Shown here piece by piece: positions 4,245 through 61,146 of a DNA stretch of 64,000 nucleotides. This stretch comes from Candidatus Saccharimonadota bacterium. Its GTDB lineage: Bacteria; Patescibacteriota; Saccharimonadia; Saccharimonadales; UBA4665. The position numbers and the translations under genes are program-made. Numbering within the stretch: position 1 is the first letter of the stretch; the number at the start of each line of letters is the position of its first letter. Location: positions 62,001-126,000 of the forward strand of contig JAQBRY010000002.1 of assembly GCA_028286245.1 (NCBI GenBank), in the 5' to 3' direction. The notes below the pieces were generated by a model that did no database searches, was not told the DNA's origin, and saw nothing but the letters and a program-made list of their open reading frames with translations.

Positions 4245-5075
4245 TTAGTACGGGAACGAGTCGATGAGGCCTTGTTGTAAGCGGCCTAGTTCGGTGGGGT
4301 CTATTGTGTTGCCAGAAAACCATTCATCTAGTACGTCGGGGCGCGGATCAAGTACCGCCTGCGTAATATCGTCTATAGATAGCGGCGCAGCTGGAGCGTA
4401 TGAATCGAACACGGAGTAGTGATCGCCAAATTTATAATTACCACCAACCAGGCCGTTAATTGATGTCAGTTGTCTACTAGGTATGCCGAAGGCATCTGCC
4501 ACTATTAATCCATGCAGACTAGACGACATAATCCGTTTACAACTTCGTATGTTACCAACAACAACTTCGGGGCTGTCCAGGACATCTATCATTTTTGTCG
4601 ATGGGTTTGCAGCGGCAAAATCCCACAGCCGCTCATCCGCCTGATCGACATAATGAGGCACGATGCCAAGCTCATAACGGGGCTTTGCAGGCGGATCAAA
4701 AATTAAGGGCAGTAATAATGCTGGATCGCCGACAGCAACCTGGTTGTTCTGCAAGCGCTCTCGTGAACGCTTCCCTCGTACCGCATGGAAAACATAATTC
4801 TGTGCTTGGTTAGAAGGCCCTTGTCTAATAAACCCACTGCCCCATACATTAATAGTATTGCCAACGCTAAGTTCACCTAGCAGTTCCAATATTGAGCCGG
4901 TACTAGCGAGCTCACACTGGGACGGATCGGCCCAAACAGCTTTACGCCCAAAAAGCCTTTCCATAATAATAGGAGTTAGTTCGTCACCAAAGTTCAGTTT
5001 GCGCGGATAATCATACCGCCACCAGTAGGTAGGTATAGGCGTCCGGGCTGCAGAATGTAAACGATTTTGAGTCAT
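4245..5075 (-). CDS. Polysaccharide pyruvyl transferase family protein
   Basis: 276 residues. NFGDEL at 28-33 is the family's N-terminal signature, followed by GSGF at 79-82, AVRGKRSRERL near 98-108, GDPALLLP at 116-123 and SSSLHGLIVADAFGIPS at 184-200, all diagnostic of the PF04230 family that ketalises cell-surface glycans with pyruvate. Spacing to the EamA transporter downstream is 43 bp on the same strand. It probably decorates a capsule or wall polymer. The acceptor sugar is unknown. Confidence 0.85.
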   Translation of the reverse strand: MTQNRLHSAARTPIPTYWWRYDYPRKLNFGDELTPIIMERLFGRKAVWADPSQCELASTGSILELLGELSVGNTINVWGSGFIRQGPSNQAQNYVFHAVRGKRSRERLQNNQVAVGDPALLLPLIFDPPAKPRYELGIVPHYVDQADERLWDFAAANPSTKMIDVLDSPEVVVGNIRSCKRIMSSSLHGLIVADAFGIPSRQLTSINGLVGGNYKFGDHYSVFDSYAPAAPLSIDDITQAVLDPRPDVLDEWFSGNTIDPTELGRLQQGLIDSFPY

Positions 5076-5146
5076 AGCTAAGAAGTGGTAATACAGTTAT
5101 TAATCTAACTATATTCTAACATCTTTATTACAAACTCGCAAAGCTG

Positions 5147-5701
5147 TTACTGGATAGTTTCGAATTCAGCTAAATCGGTGCGGGCTAGGAGTAAGTATAC
5201 GGGCCTGCTCACCGACTGGCCTCGTGCTGCTGCCAGGGCGAGAGCCGTTGAGCGGTGCATGCCTTCGATAATATAAACACTAGCACCCTTGAGCAGCCCA
5301 ATAAGCTTAGTGGGGCCATTCGAAGCATTTATCTCCGCAAACTTATCCCGAGTGTTAACGTCAGTTCCTTCGGTATCTACAATTTCAGCGAACGTAGGAG
5401 CTTTTTTACCGCCGTAATACATATCTTCCCAGGGCTTAAAAGGGCCGCCCCTAAAGCCAGGGATAGATGCCAGTGGATCATCTACTTCGTACAGCGCCCA
5501 GGTGAGTCTATCGAGATGCAGCGGATCAATGATACTACTCCTCCACGATTCCCACGTGTCATAACCCTGTTCGGCATACTCACGCCGAAACGTATCAGTG
5601 TCTTCGTCGTTTTTCCAGCTTTGCATGACCTCGTCCCAAGAAACTTCGCTCACGAAGGTTAGGCCTGTAGGAATGTTTGGCTGTGGTTCATGCTCTGACA
5701 T
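5147..5701 (-). CDS. ParB/sulfiredoxin-like fold protein, unknown function
   Basis: 184 residues from the ATG at 5701, chosen because TATAGT lies exactly six bases upstream (5708-5713 on this strand), the leaderless pattern seen at many genes here; a longer frame up to 5842 would overlap the divergent gene. The C-terminal part contains VYIIEGMHRSTALALAAARG, resembling the G-x-H-R motif of ParB/sulfiredoxin-like domains (VxDGHHRxxAA). The N-terminal half is acidic and aromatic-rich with no match known to me. The ParB-like call is tentative. Confidence 0.55.
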   Translation of the reverse strand: MSEHEPQPNIPTGLTFVSEVSWDEVMQSWKNDEDTDTFRREYAEQGYDTWESWRSSIIDPLHLDRLTWALYEVDDPLASIPGFRGGPFKPWEDMYYGGKKAPTFAEIVDTEGTDVNTRDKFAEINASNGPTKLIGLLKGASVYIIEGMHRSTALALAAARGQSVSRPVYLLLARTDLAEFETIQ

Positions 5702-51812: not shown

Positions 51813-53504
51813 CTAATAAACGCGGCTCTGTAAACCATCCATGTAGAGTGTTATCTTACCAAGTGATAGCAGTTTCCTAAATGCTGTTTCAGTGTACTCA
51901 TGCTCGCCTTCAGGATCAGTATAAGTAGCAAAGCTACAAGGTATACCCATCTCTGCGCAAAGTGTTTCCATGTGAGCACCTTGCCCACCACTTACCGTAT
52001 ATATTTGGTCATCGACAACTACTACAGCTTTAGCACCTTTAAGCATCCAAGCTTTAATGGCTGACAATCCAAAGTTCGATTCAGCTACAACTATGTATGG
52101 CTTACCGTCGTTGGGTATGCCAGCCCCAATTCTGTTGTCTTCGATTGGTTCGCCCTCGATGCCATTCGCTATACCTAAAGCTCGGCCACTGTAATGATAA
52201 GGTGCATCTGGGAAGCCGTTGAATGTTTCTGGCACTTCTATAAGTGAAGCCGGTAAAGGCCTGCTTTGCAGAGCATAAAAATAATCACCATCTATAAATT
52301 CTTGCTGAACTGGGCGACCATACACTAGCTCGCTGAATCTCGACATGTAGCTAGCTTTCATAAATGTCGATGGATCCGCACGACGGCTATCGAACGCAAA
52401 ATAAGGGGCTGTGGAGTAACTACCTTGGCTATCCCACCAAACTTGGCCGGCATATGTATGTGGCTGATGTGCGAGGTCAAGTAGTGTTTTATCACGCCAA
52501 AACGGCATGCGCAGCATAGTAGCAGGCTCATCATCTCTAGACCTGCCAATAACATAAATTTCATGTAATGCAGCAACACCTGGAACAGCTCCATTTGAGT
52601 AGCCCCACCCTCTACCAGATTTATCGGCAACATTTGCCTGAATAACCAACCCCATAACTTCACTGCTTACACTATGTTCGTTCCGATATCTAACTGCTTC
52701 ATCGCTATCAACTGATGCGTATACAGCTTTCATAGCAACTATAAGCTCCGATGTCCGTTGCCCTGATGGAACAAAAACAGATTCATAAATTCCTGCTGCT
52801 GTTGAACCTTCAAGATCTTCGGAATGTACTGCACTACTTCGAACCCAATAACCATTTTCAGCATTCTGCTCTGTCCATTCTAGATAACTTTTTATATCGG
52901 CAGGGTCGATATCCTTTTGCTTAGCATTGGCATAAAAAGTGGCTGGTACACCTACAAAAGGAGGCACCTGGTAAATATCTTGCCCAAGCATAGCATTCAG
53001 CCGATGAGCAATAGCAGTGGTCGCCCGAAGGTTCGCGTACTTATTACCATATGCAGCTTTATCGGTTTCAAAATTAACAGCTATCTCATTATGGGCAGCC
53101 TCAGCGGCAGCGCGTACTTCAGGAAGTCGTTCTAGACTAGCAGCCATAGAAATACTATCATACACATATTTTTGAGGGCTATTGCCTCCAGCTTGGGTAT
53201 CTACTTGTAAGTTGCTGTTAAAAAACTTGTCTTTAAGGGTTTGCCAATCCTTAGCATCGCGATCTGGATCTGACTCATCATATTCTGGAGAAATAGTCGT
53301 TGTACCATGAATGTAAAATCTGCTTCCATCATCCCTAAATAAATCAAGCGTATGTGACCGCAGGTGTCCAGCAAGCTCAAGCTGACCAGCTTCATCAAGT
53401 GACTCAAGTGGCGTTCCTAATAATGCTTCACTTTTTCCTTGCCAATCGATTACTTGATCTAGATTAAATCCGTCTCGTGGATAGTCACTGTAGCCGTAAC
53501 GCAT
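51813..53504 (-). CDS. PEP-synthase-like ATP-grasp protein with swivelling domain
   Basis: 563 residues. After an N-terminal extension of about 180 residues of no known family, NAENGYWVRSSAVHSEDLEGSTAAGIYESV and EVMGLVIQANV and QQEFIDGDYFYALQSRPLP mark the ATP-grasp domain of PEP synthase/PPDK. A C-terminal swivel domain (AVVVVDDQIYTVSGGQGAHMETLCAEMGIPCSF) keeps the histidine of the GGxxxH motif though the surrounding SHAA is lost. The PEP/pyruvate barrel is absent. So it can be a phosphotransferase to an unknown acceptor, as in rifampicin phosphotransferases, or a degenerate relative. Confidence 0.75.
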   Translation of the reverse strand: MRYGYSDYPRDGFNLDQVIDWQGKSEALLGTPLESLDEAGQLELAGHLRSHTLDLFRDDGSRFYIHGTTTISPEYDESDPDRDAKDWQTLKDKFFNSNLQVDTQAGGNSPQKYVYDSISMAASLERLPEVRAAAEAAHNEIAVNFETDKAAYGNKYANLRATTAIAHRLNAMLGQDIYQVPPFVGVPATFYANAKQKDIDPADIKSYLEWTEQNAENGYWVRSSAVHSEDLEGSTAAGIYESVFVPSGQRTSELIVAMKAVYASVDSDEAVRYRNEHSVSSEVMGLVIQANVADKSGRGWGYSNGAVPGVAALHEIYVIGRSRDDEPATMLRMPFWRDKTLLDLAHQPHTYAGQVWWDSQGSYSTAPYFAFDSRRADPSTFMKASYMSRFSELVYGRPVQQEFIDGDYFYALQSRPLPASLIEVPETFNGFPDAPYHYSGRALGIANGIEGEPIEDNRIGAGIPNDGKPYIVVAESNFGLSAIKAWMLKGAKAVVVVDDQIYTVSGGQGAHMETLCAEMGIPCSFATYTDPEGEHEYTETAFRKLLSLGKITLYMDGLQSRVY

Positions 53505-58651: not shown

Positions 58652-59746
58652 CTATACGGTAACAGTGCCATCATCGGCGTTTACCTGTACGATTTGGCCA
58701 GTCGTAAGCTTTTGAGTGGCGTCACCGGTGCCCACGATGCAAGGTTTGTGGAGTTCCCTGGCAACAATGGCAGCATGTGAAAGAATACCGCCCTGGTCCG
58801 TTACAATTGCCGCTGCTTTTTGCATGAGCGGGACATAGTTTGGCGTTGTTACTTTACACACCAGGATGCCGCCTTCCGGAAAATTAACATCAAGTTGATC
58901 TGGCGACACAATGCAAACTGCACCGGTTGCTGTGCCTGAACTGCCAGTTTGGCCGCTGACTAATGCTGAACTGCTGGCTGGTGCGGTACGGACAATAGTG
59001 TCGGCATACATGTTACCTAGTGACTGGCTGTAATCGATATACCAAGTGCCCATTGAGGAGTCTGTGGTTTCAAAATATCCCTGCAGGTAATTGTTCACGA
59101 ATGTTGCGCCGAGCTTTTCCGCCAATTTGGCTTGCACTTGCGTATCGGGTACATAGATAAGGGCAGCTAGCTTTTTAAGGTGTTCTAGCGCCGCGTCGTC
59201 CTGTGATGTCATTGTCCAGTCCTTAAAATCATATCTAAAAATGATTGGCGCTGCGCCGTCGTGAAATCCCTGAGTGAGCTGATGATGACCGCCAAAAATT
59301 ATCTCACCCTGAATACCGTGCGTATTAACGATAAAAATGGTTGCCCAGGAAGAATCCGGAGCGTGTGGGACAAAATCGGCGCGATATTTAGCCGGATCAA
59401 GCTGCTGTTCATTAAACCAGGCGTAAGCGTCCTTAATTGATTTGCCGCGCATCCGGAGCTTTGGTAGACCATCTTGCTTTGGCATCAGCCTAAGCGCACA
59501 GAGTTCCTGGCCACGCTCGTTCAAAAAGCTAACAAAATCTGGATTATCATCCCTAAGATCAGCTGCCTCAAACTGAGTGGGCTGGTCAAATGGCAGGCCA
59601 ATTATTTCGCTCAGAACTTTTAGCCGCTCGCGCTTGTCATTATCTTCTTTGCGGATCAGTGCCGCATCCGTATGTTTAATATCTTCCAGCCACTCGGTGA
59701 GTGACTTTTGCGTTTTTAGTAGTTCTGCAAGTTTATCGTCTGCCAT
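58652..59746 (-). CDS. PEP-synthase-like protein, C-terminal half (phosphohistidine domain)
   Basis: 364 residues. The last 85 residues form the swivelling phosphohistidine domain: GGILVCKVTTPNYVPLMQKAAAIVTDQGGILSHAAIVARELHKPCIVG, with the phosphorylated His in SHAA. The first 280 residues (with KLRMRGKSIKDAYAWFNEQQ and HGIQGEIIFGGHHQLTQG) match nothing I know and take the place of an acceptor-binding domain. It has a GAAGGG site and lies 31 bp behind the ATP-grasp half. The PEP barrel is absent, so the phosphate probably goes to another acceptor. Confidence 0.8.
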   Translation of the reverse strand: MADDKLAELLKTQKSLTEWLEDIKHTDAALIRKEDNDKRERLKVLSEIIGLPFDQPTQFEAADLRDDNPDFVSFLNERGQELCALRLMPKQDGLPKLRMRGKSIKDAYAWFNEQQLDPAKYRADFVPHAPDSSWATIFIVNTHGIQGEIIFGGHHQLTQGFHDGAAPIIFRYDFKDWTMTSQDDAALEHLKKLAALIYVPDTQVQAKLAEKLGATFVNNYLQGYFETTDSSMGTWYIDYSQSLGNMYADTIVRTAPASSSALVSGQTGSSGTATGAVCIVSPDQLDVNFPEGGILVCKVTTPNYVPLMQKAAAIVTDQGGILSHAAIVARELHKPCIVGTGDATQKLTTGQIVQVNADDGTVTV

Positions 59747-59777
59747 GCGGTGTACCCTTCATTTCATTCATTGTATA

Positions 59778-60593
59778 TCACTCGGCAGCAAGTGCCGTAA
59801 TCGGACGGCTTTGTAGTATATAAAATTTATTTTCATAAAGTGCCCATTCAACATCAACCGGGTAGCCAAAAAATATTTCTAACTGCACTACAACTGCGGC
59901 CAGCGACGTAATTTGGTCGTTGGTCAACTTCTGCGCTTGGCCGGAATCACCTGCATCTTGCCAACTTGTCACGCCGTCGTCGAGTACCATTTTTTTGGTT
60001 TGCCGGGCAACAATGGTCTGTATTATTTGATAACTAGTTTTAGTAACAATATACGTATCTGGTGTAACTTCACCGGATACAATCGCCTCGCCAAGCCCCA
60101 GACCAGCCTCGATAACTATTTGATTGGTATCACGTGTTACCGGGTGAACCGAAAAGGCTACGCCGCTGACATCGCTCTGAATCATCCTTTGAATAATGAC
60201 CGCTACCAGGCCAGTTGTTAACGATTGCTGCTCCGCATACGACTGGGCCCGCGCAGAACCCGCCGATGACTGACAACGCGCCATATTCTGTAGTAATGTT
60301 TTTCGATTGGTGTTAAGGAAGGTGTCTAACTGGCCTGCCCAGGCCGCGTCAACGCCGTCTTCATTAAGGGCACTCGAGCGCACCGCCACGTAGGTGGCTG
60401 CCAATTGATCAAACCGGTCGAGCAACTGCTCCTTCAGCGCTGGCACGGTGGCGTCCAGATCGGTGGCGAGCAGTACAAAACCTTCCGGAACATTAAAGCC
60501 GGCCTGCATCATTTTAGCGAGCGCGGCGGCCTTGCCTCCTGCTACGAGGGCGTCACCGGCATCGGCTAGGTCAACAATTAAACTATCCGGCAT
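59778..60593 (-). CDS. PEP-synthase-like protein, N-terminal half (ATP-grasp)
   Basis: 271 residues, a complete PPDK_N ATP-grasp domain: GGKAAALAKMMQAGFNVPEGFVL, YVAVRSSALNEDG, AVIIQRMIQSDVSGVAFSVHPVTRD, EAGLGLGEAIVSGEVTPD and DVEWALYENKFYILQSRPIT. It transfers phosphate from ATP to the histidine of a partner domain, here encoded by the next gene. Four bases separate it from the deoxyribosyltransferase-like gene upstream. Splitting of this enzyme in two chains is unusual. Confidence 0.88.
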   Translation of the reverse strand: MPDSLIVDLADAGDALVAGGKAAALAKMMQAGFNVPEGFVLLATDLDATVPALKEQLLDRFDQLAATYVAVRSSALNEDGVDAAWAGQLDTFLNTNRKTLLQNMARCQSSAGSARAQSYAEQQSLTTGLVAVIIQRMIQSDVSGVAFSVHPVTRDTNQIVIEAGLGLGEAIVSGEVTPDTYIVTKTSYQIIQTIVARQTKKMVLDDGVTSWQDAGDSGQAQKLTNDQITSLAAVVVQLEIFFGYPVDVEWALYENKFYILQSRPITALAAE

Positions 60594-60597
60594 TTTT

Positions 60598-61113
60598 CTA
60601 GGCTGCCTTTTGGGTTGCTATATAGTAATCAATTGACTTCGGAATGATATCGAGAGATTTAGGAGTGATGGTGGCAATGTCTTTAAGAGCTTCCGCGACT
60701 GCCTCAATCGATTCACAAACGACATCACAGGTAGTGAACACAAAGGGATCCTTATAATTTTTGACAATGGTACCAAAGTATTCTTTATCGGATCCATTAA
60801 ATTTGCCGCCGTGCTTGGCGAGTCCTATAACCGGTACTTTGAAATACTTTGCAATTAATATCTCCTGAGAACCACCGACGCTAATATCGTCGGATAAGTA
60901 CACAATCATTACATCGCTCTTCGAAATAAGGAAGCTGTCGCGGCCAAATACCAGCTCAGCATCATTTTGATCTACCGTAGCGTCAACGGGACTTTGCATG
61001 TCCAGCGTGAGCCCGCTGAGCTTCTCCAGTCGCGTACAAAAATCATCACGCCAGTAATGCGTCCCGAATGCCGACTCTTTTGATATCTTGCCAGCAACAT
61101 ATACCTTGATCAT
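60598..61113 (-). CDS. Nucleoside 2-deoxyribosyltransferase-like protein
   Basis: 171 residues from the ATG six bases after TAAAAT. VYVAGKISKES...YWRDDF, SDVMIVYLSDD and SVGGSQEILIAKYFKVPVIGL, with E in the G-x-x-x-E position of the nucleophile, follow the nucleoside deoxyribosyltransferase fold. It heads the operon with the split PEP-synthase-like genes. Members of this fold cut or exchange bases on nucleosides or nucleotides, so the operon may process a modified nucleotide. Confidence 0.75.
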   Translation of the reverse strand: MIKVYVAGKISKESAFGTHYWRDDFCTRLEKLSGLTLDMQSPVDATVDQNDAELVFGRDSFLISKSDVMIVYLSDDISVGGSQEILIAKYFKVPVIGLAKHGGKFNGSDKEYFGTIVKNYKDPFVFTTCDVVCESIEAVAEALKDIATITPKSLDIIPKSIDYYIATQKAA

Positions 61114-61146
61114 GGGCTTATTTTAGCACTGCAGCACTAATAGGCG

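Follow-up and report, generated by a model that had tools for sequence, protein, structure and literature searches.

What does a PEP-synthase-like phosphotransferase act on when it is split over two genes and lacks its PEP/pyruvate barrel, and does the gene in front of it belong to the same unit? These questions are raised by three co-directional genes in the window, i.e., the whole stretch of 64,000 nucleotides that was analyzed (G000:C2:62001-126000, from a Candidatus Saccharimonadota genome of 1.13 Mb). All three lie on the minus strand, as do their parts given below. Gene A (60598..61113; 171 aa) belongs to the nucleoside 2-deoxyribosyltransferase (PF05014) family and turns out to be an optional neighbour. 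Gene B (59778..60593; 271 aa) is a stand-alone PPDK/PEPS-type ATP-grasp protein and the putative charging component, while gene C (58652..59746; 364 aa) encodes the putative carrier/acceptor component. According to the ORF calls, the intergenic gaps are 4 bp (A-B) and 31 bp (B-C), in agreement with an earlier note that was made from the sequence alone. That note also proposed one leaderless promoter. A TAAAAT hexamer, a possible -10 element, does occur 6 nt upstream of the gene A ATG (61120..61125, minus strand) with no clear -35, but a promoter scan before gene A found none at this site and no excess over shuffles, leaving the promoter weakly supported.

The catalytic hardware of B and C is readily recognized. 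Gene B matches the Pfam profile PPDK_N (PF01326; E = 1.2e-60), its sequence resembles the ATP domains of PEPS and RPH in the PDB, and its motifs, including K21, R72, E169, D247, E249, Q261 and R263, are invariant in eight orthologues. Residues 289-360 of C (58667..58882) form the PEP-utiliser mobile (swivel) domain (PF00391; E = 3.3e-26). The predicted phosphohistidine, His324 (codon at 58775..58777), is invariant in nine orthologues and closes the motif T316-D-Q-G-G-I-L-S-H324, which fits the T/SxxGGxxxH consensus. The regulatory Thr of PEPS precedes the catalytic His by two residues (PMC12167813); in C this position is taken by Leu322 (GGILSH). A search of the genome with the B profile returned gene B as the sole match, and C is the single PF00391 match over the cut-off. 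The PEP/pyruvate barrel (PF02896) is absent both from C and from the whole genome (no match at E <= 10). The claim of a split PEP-synthase-like phosphotransferase without its barrel is therefore borne out. The window also encodes a second protein (51813..53504, minus strand; 563 aa) with a diverged PPDK_N and a swivel-like part that keeps T-V-S-G-G-Q-G-A-H. This protein has no relative among 39 related genomes and no match in the PDB. Because of this second ATP-grasp and swivel-like protein, an exclusive pairing of B with C is unproven.

Genes B and C form a conserved pair, which is the core unit of the locus. Across the 393 genomes of the order, the N-terminal domain of C occurs in nine and a high-scoring B (over 250 bits to the B profile) in ten, nine of which are exactly the C genomes. 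There is one genome with B only (G082) and none with C only, a co-occurrence with a Fisher p of about 2e-17 when the 393 genomes are treated as independent of kinship. The possibility, raised in the earlier note, that relatives keep the genes apart does not apply to B and C within the order: in eight of the nine C genomes, B is the gene immediately upstream of C, and in the ninth (G134) it is found on a different contig, as part of a 636-aa frame. A wider scan of 84,980 species genomes yielded 32 loci with C relatives, one of which (L067) is a fragment adjoining B. They belong to Saccharibacteria, Berkelbacteria, Uhrbacteria, Magasanikbacteria, Woesebacteria, Komeilibacteria and other Patescibacteria, along with three DPANN archaea; the C of the window has its nearest relatives among the Saccharibacteria. 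At about half of these wider CPR/DPANN loci, B adjoins C. A match to the B profile is present in 17 of a set of 24 genomes. The seven genomes without one comprise four that carry A only (G015, G084, G156, G074) and three that carry C (G425, G427, G431). In four C genomes (G429, G430, G434, G439), nothing but a full-length PEP synthase matches the profile strongly, so that several genomes carry C and lack a dedicated B, which speaks against the pairing being universal. Most unlinked copies of C are accompanied by a B-like ATP-grasp protein or a full PEP synthase elsewhere in the genome, with none found in G425, G427 and G431. The Berkelbacteria sequences of C nest with good support within the Saccharibacteria clade, so the C gene has probably moved between phyla. 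Relatives from phages, plasmids or viral contigs were not found.

The earlier note knew of no described system with this composition. However, HpeHI, CreHI and PpsAB (phenylphosphate synthase) have already been described as two-component dikinases, in which an ATP-grasp protein and a protein with a substrate domain and a His-swivel are both needed (PMC12167813). The separate ATP-grasp component HpeI/PpsB corresponds to B, whereas HpeH/PpsA, with a substrate domain followed by a C-terminal His-swivel and the T/SxxGGxxxH motif, corresponds to C (PMC12167813). In these systems the components are likewise encoded together. They differ in the substrate domain: HpeH (71 kDa) has a substrate domain that is RPH-like and acts on phenols, while the 364 residues of C include an unrelated domain with a predicted ATP-grasp-like fold. 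By its architecture, B-C would be a putative variant of the two-component dikinases; its membership is unproven, given that C lacks the RPH-like substrate domain. Similarly, RPH combines an ATP-grasp and a swivel domain with an acceptor domain for something other than PEP and has its swivel His at the C-terminal end, but RPH is a single chain with a RIF-binding domain; B-C is split, and this domain was not found in C. PEP synthase and PPDK provide the best sequence matches of B and of the C swivel, and share with C the order of an ATP-grasp(-like) domain followed by a swivel, yet they carry the barrel that B-C lacks. As for gene A, it is the members of its family that match the PF05014 model, the copy in the window itself lying below detection.

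The remaining part of C is what sets the pair apart. Residues 1-254 (58985..59746) constitute an undescribed domain, with no match in Pfam, NCBIfam or the sequences of the PDB. The 280 residues given for it in the earlier note compare with about 254 for the domain, or about 288 if the linker is counted. AlphaFold2 predicts the full C with a pLDDT of 89 and a pTM of 0.85 (alignment of nine sequences), and residues 1-254 with a pLDDT of 91 and a pTM of 0.84 (alignment of 32 sequences). In a Foldseek search of the PDB, the best 50 matches of the predicted domain are all ATP-grasp proteins (E = 1.5e-5 to 4.4e-4; TM around 0.4; alignments of 207-270 columns), including D-Ala-D-Ala ligase, GAR synthetase, the isolated ATP domain of RPH (5hv6) and PEPS. 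The best viral fold match is a stand-alone PPDK-type ATP-grasp of Hyperionvirus (TM 0.49 over 250 columns). Two hhalign comparisons with the PPDK_N and B profiles gave no similarity (probability 0.1-0.2%). The domain is thus predicted to be a diverged ATP-grasp fold whose relation is not detected by sequence profiles. This predicted fold leads us to reject a degenerate PEP barrel, which the earlier note had named as one of the findings that would overturn its reading. A rifampicin-binding domain was also rejected, given the lack of a PDB sequence match and the ATP-grasp nature of the fold matches, and matches to ARPP-2 in three of the 32 sequences (E = 0.0086) were weak and judged to be due to chance. 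A total of 25 residues are invariant across the 32 sequences, and the charged and polar ones among them (E34, D35, K38, R41, R86, K96, R98, H154, E226 and D238) argue for a working site. In a manual reading that follows the predicted strands, R86, G147-E148 and E226 appear to align with the VRSS Arg, the GLGE motif and the VEW Glu of PPDK-type domains, respectively; the ILQSR Gln of those domains is not kept in C, which has Y, W or F instead. A literature search retrieved no description of this domain or of B-C in CPR bacteria or DPANN archaea. To judge from sequence comparison, the novelty would lie in this putative acceptor-side domain, which is absent from known families and has been seen so far only in these two groups of organisms.

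In PpsAB, the His takes up the beta-phosphate of ATP by nucleophilic attack, hydrolysis removes the gamma-phosphate, and the swivel brings the phospho-His to the substrate domain; the same route is proposed for HpeHI and RPH (PMC12167813, PMC4844700). Since PpsAB, HpeHI and CreHI work this way, a similar mechanism is expected for B-C. B would bind ATP and present it to C, where His324 on the swivel would attack it, with release of AMP and Pi and formation of phospho-His on C. Next, the swivel would turn toward the N-terminal domain of C itself and hand the phosphoryl group on to a ligand bound in it. We infer phosphate transfer with the N-terminal domain of C as the acceptor site, for which it is the natural candidate, as the earlier note had suggested by calling it the probable acceptor-binding domain. 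That B charges C and that the acceptor site resides in this domain is the reading we favour, and we hold it to be reasonably probable. Gene A would be accessory to the pair and might draw on the same pool of metabolites.

The identity of the acceptor is a separate matter. The earlier note took gene A as a hint at a nucleoside or base. Although gene A alone has no Pfam match, its assignment to the deoxyribosyltransferase fold stands, as PF05014 Nuc_deoxyrib_tr is matched by four of the five aligned family members (best E = 9.7e-5). The conserved Glu of its GGSQE motif is at the position expected of the catalytic Glu, and the protein may act as a nucleotide N-glycosidase instead of a transferase. 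Its linkage to the pair is rare. Relatives of A occur in six of 295 genomes of the class, mostly without B or C; conversely, among the 28 C or B genomes besides that of the window, a close A is present in G126 (beside C, convergent), a distant and unlinked one in G432, and a weak partial one in G149. A is therefore linked to B-C in two genomes only. The genes of G126 reside in the polA-mutM island; the genome of the window, by contrast, has polA and mutM at C2:426-430 kb, with the operon lying at C2:120.7-123.1 kb, so the linkage exists at two separate sites. This is suggestive of a link, albeit in two genomes. The rare linkage and the occurrence of A without B and C exclude it as a core member; the separation in relatives that the earlier note considered does apply to A, which therefore says little about the acceptor.

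Some other neighbourhoods do point to nucleotides; these loci were chosen after their contexts had been seen and serve as illustrations, not as a tally. C is fused to NTPase_I-T (DUF84) and a methyltransferase beside a NUDIX gene in a Woesearchaeote (L049); in Woesebacteria (L057), its fusion partner is a DHH domain. Elsewhere, a dCMP-type deaminase, B, C and a HAD gene are co-directional (L024), an NT5C deoxyribonucleotidase follows C (L052), or an AAA_33/zeta-like P-loop protein does (L023). In the first locus set, which included three loci added after their contexts were seen (L048, L049 and L057), NUDIX accounted for 15 of 81 neighbours versus at most one of 81 in random regions (p of about 1e-4 taking one). 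In the 78 neighbours of the remaining loci, NUDIX is not among the most frequent families. The excess is thus set-dependent and mostly a property of the Saccharibacteria polA-mutM hotspot, and a nucleotide neighbourhood as a general feature is ruled out. Outside Saccharibacteria, the neighbours are mixed housekeeping genes, and no aromatic catabolism genes were seen near the pair. A nucleotide, nucleoside or base as acceptor is a tentative proposal. The polA-mutM interval itself (L020-L025, L033 and L034) appears to be a variable cargo site in Saccharibacteria, rich in NUDIX, MazG-like, HAD, NDT-like and P-loop genes.

The predicted fold allows another reading, in which the N-terminal domain of C still has a bound nucleotide, to which the swivel would bring a (pyro)phosphoryl group from the ATP of B, e.g., to convert NMP to NDP or NTP in salvage. 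The PPDK-type viral protein as best overall match, the presence of the ATP domain of RPH among the leading PDB matches, the by-eye positions of R86, G147-E148 and E226 and the nucleotide genes fused or co-directional at L049, L057, L024 and L052 are all consistent with it. However, the residue correspondence is manual with nothing detected by hhalign, the ILQSR Gln is replaced, and nucleotide neighbours are not general beyond Saccharibacteria, which makes this reading unlikely. Its specific form, with two ATP-grasp-fold sites on two proteins, where B would discharge ATP onto the swivel His and the diverged site of C would hold a nucleotide-like acceptor that receives the (pyro)phosphoryl group, also strikes us as unlikely. 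The same fold could instead be a regulatory or sensing pseudo-ATP-grasp, with the phosphate of His324 relayed to another protein or signal as in the PTS. C is frequently apart from B, at other CPR loci a single B-like kinase is accompanied by an assortment of swivel proteins (among these loci are clusters with a four-swivel protein and histidine-phosphatase-like genes), and a fusion of a MORC ATPase to a swivel exists. Yet no conserved downstream carrier protein adjoins B-C and the invariant polar residues resemble an active site; we regard such a relay as unlikely.

An antibiotic-inactivating or anti-phage role, either RPH-like or as part of a defence island, is suggested by the phosphorylation of small molecules by RPH and the phenolic dikinases, and by the sporadic distribution with transfer between phyla. 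It is improbable considering that no PADLOC family rises above noise (a single match, E = 0.0089), that phage, plasmid and viral-contig relatives are missing, that the surroundings are not a defence island and that the acceptor domain of C is unrelated to the RIF-binding domain. Finally, B-C could be what is left of a PEP synthase after loss of both barrel and function, as C keeps the PEPS order and its swivel scores 110 bits with the PEPS model versus 57 bits with the RPH model. The strong conservation of all catalytic motifs and of the N-terminal domain of C over many phyla renders a remnant very improbable. The favoured reading of a charging B and an acceptor site in C would give the two-component dikinases, a small group so far, a new type of acceptor domain, in CPR and DPANN lineages with a metabolism that is still largely unexplained. 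Should a nucleotide or nucleoside be the acceptor, the pair would serve as a kinase for salvage or clean-up in organisms relying on nucleotides that they scavenge; if the reading with two ATP-grasp sites is true, CPR bacteria and DPANN archaea would phosphorylate or clean up nucleotides by a route not described before. The strict B-C pairing, the small proteins and the clear predicted catalytic residue make the system directly testable.

Other arrangements of swivel and ATP-grasp genes were encountered during the survey. In the B-only genome of the order, a MORC-type GHKL ATPase (HATPase_c_3 and Morc6_S5) is fused to a PEP-utiliser swivel (L128:1055-2425, G082:C62) and belongs to a co-directional run that also includes an ATP-grasp gene resembling B (ORF 4414-5322) and one for an ATP-grasp_3 protein. 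Two loci (L054:1-4512 and L060:158-4987) hold clusters of differing proteins with a helical domain and a His-swivel, one ORF carrying four swivels, next to genes that resemble RHG histidine phosphatases by motif, without a Pfam match. Short, diverged B-like ATP-grasp genes without GGK and GLGE (L129:4766-5458 and L130:4388-5083) adjoin a NUDIX gene and an AAA ATPase. Another split pair, in f35 genomes (L127:4115-7544 and L126), consists of a HIT protein, a short ATP-grasp and a swivel protein of 484 aa.
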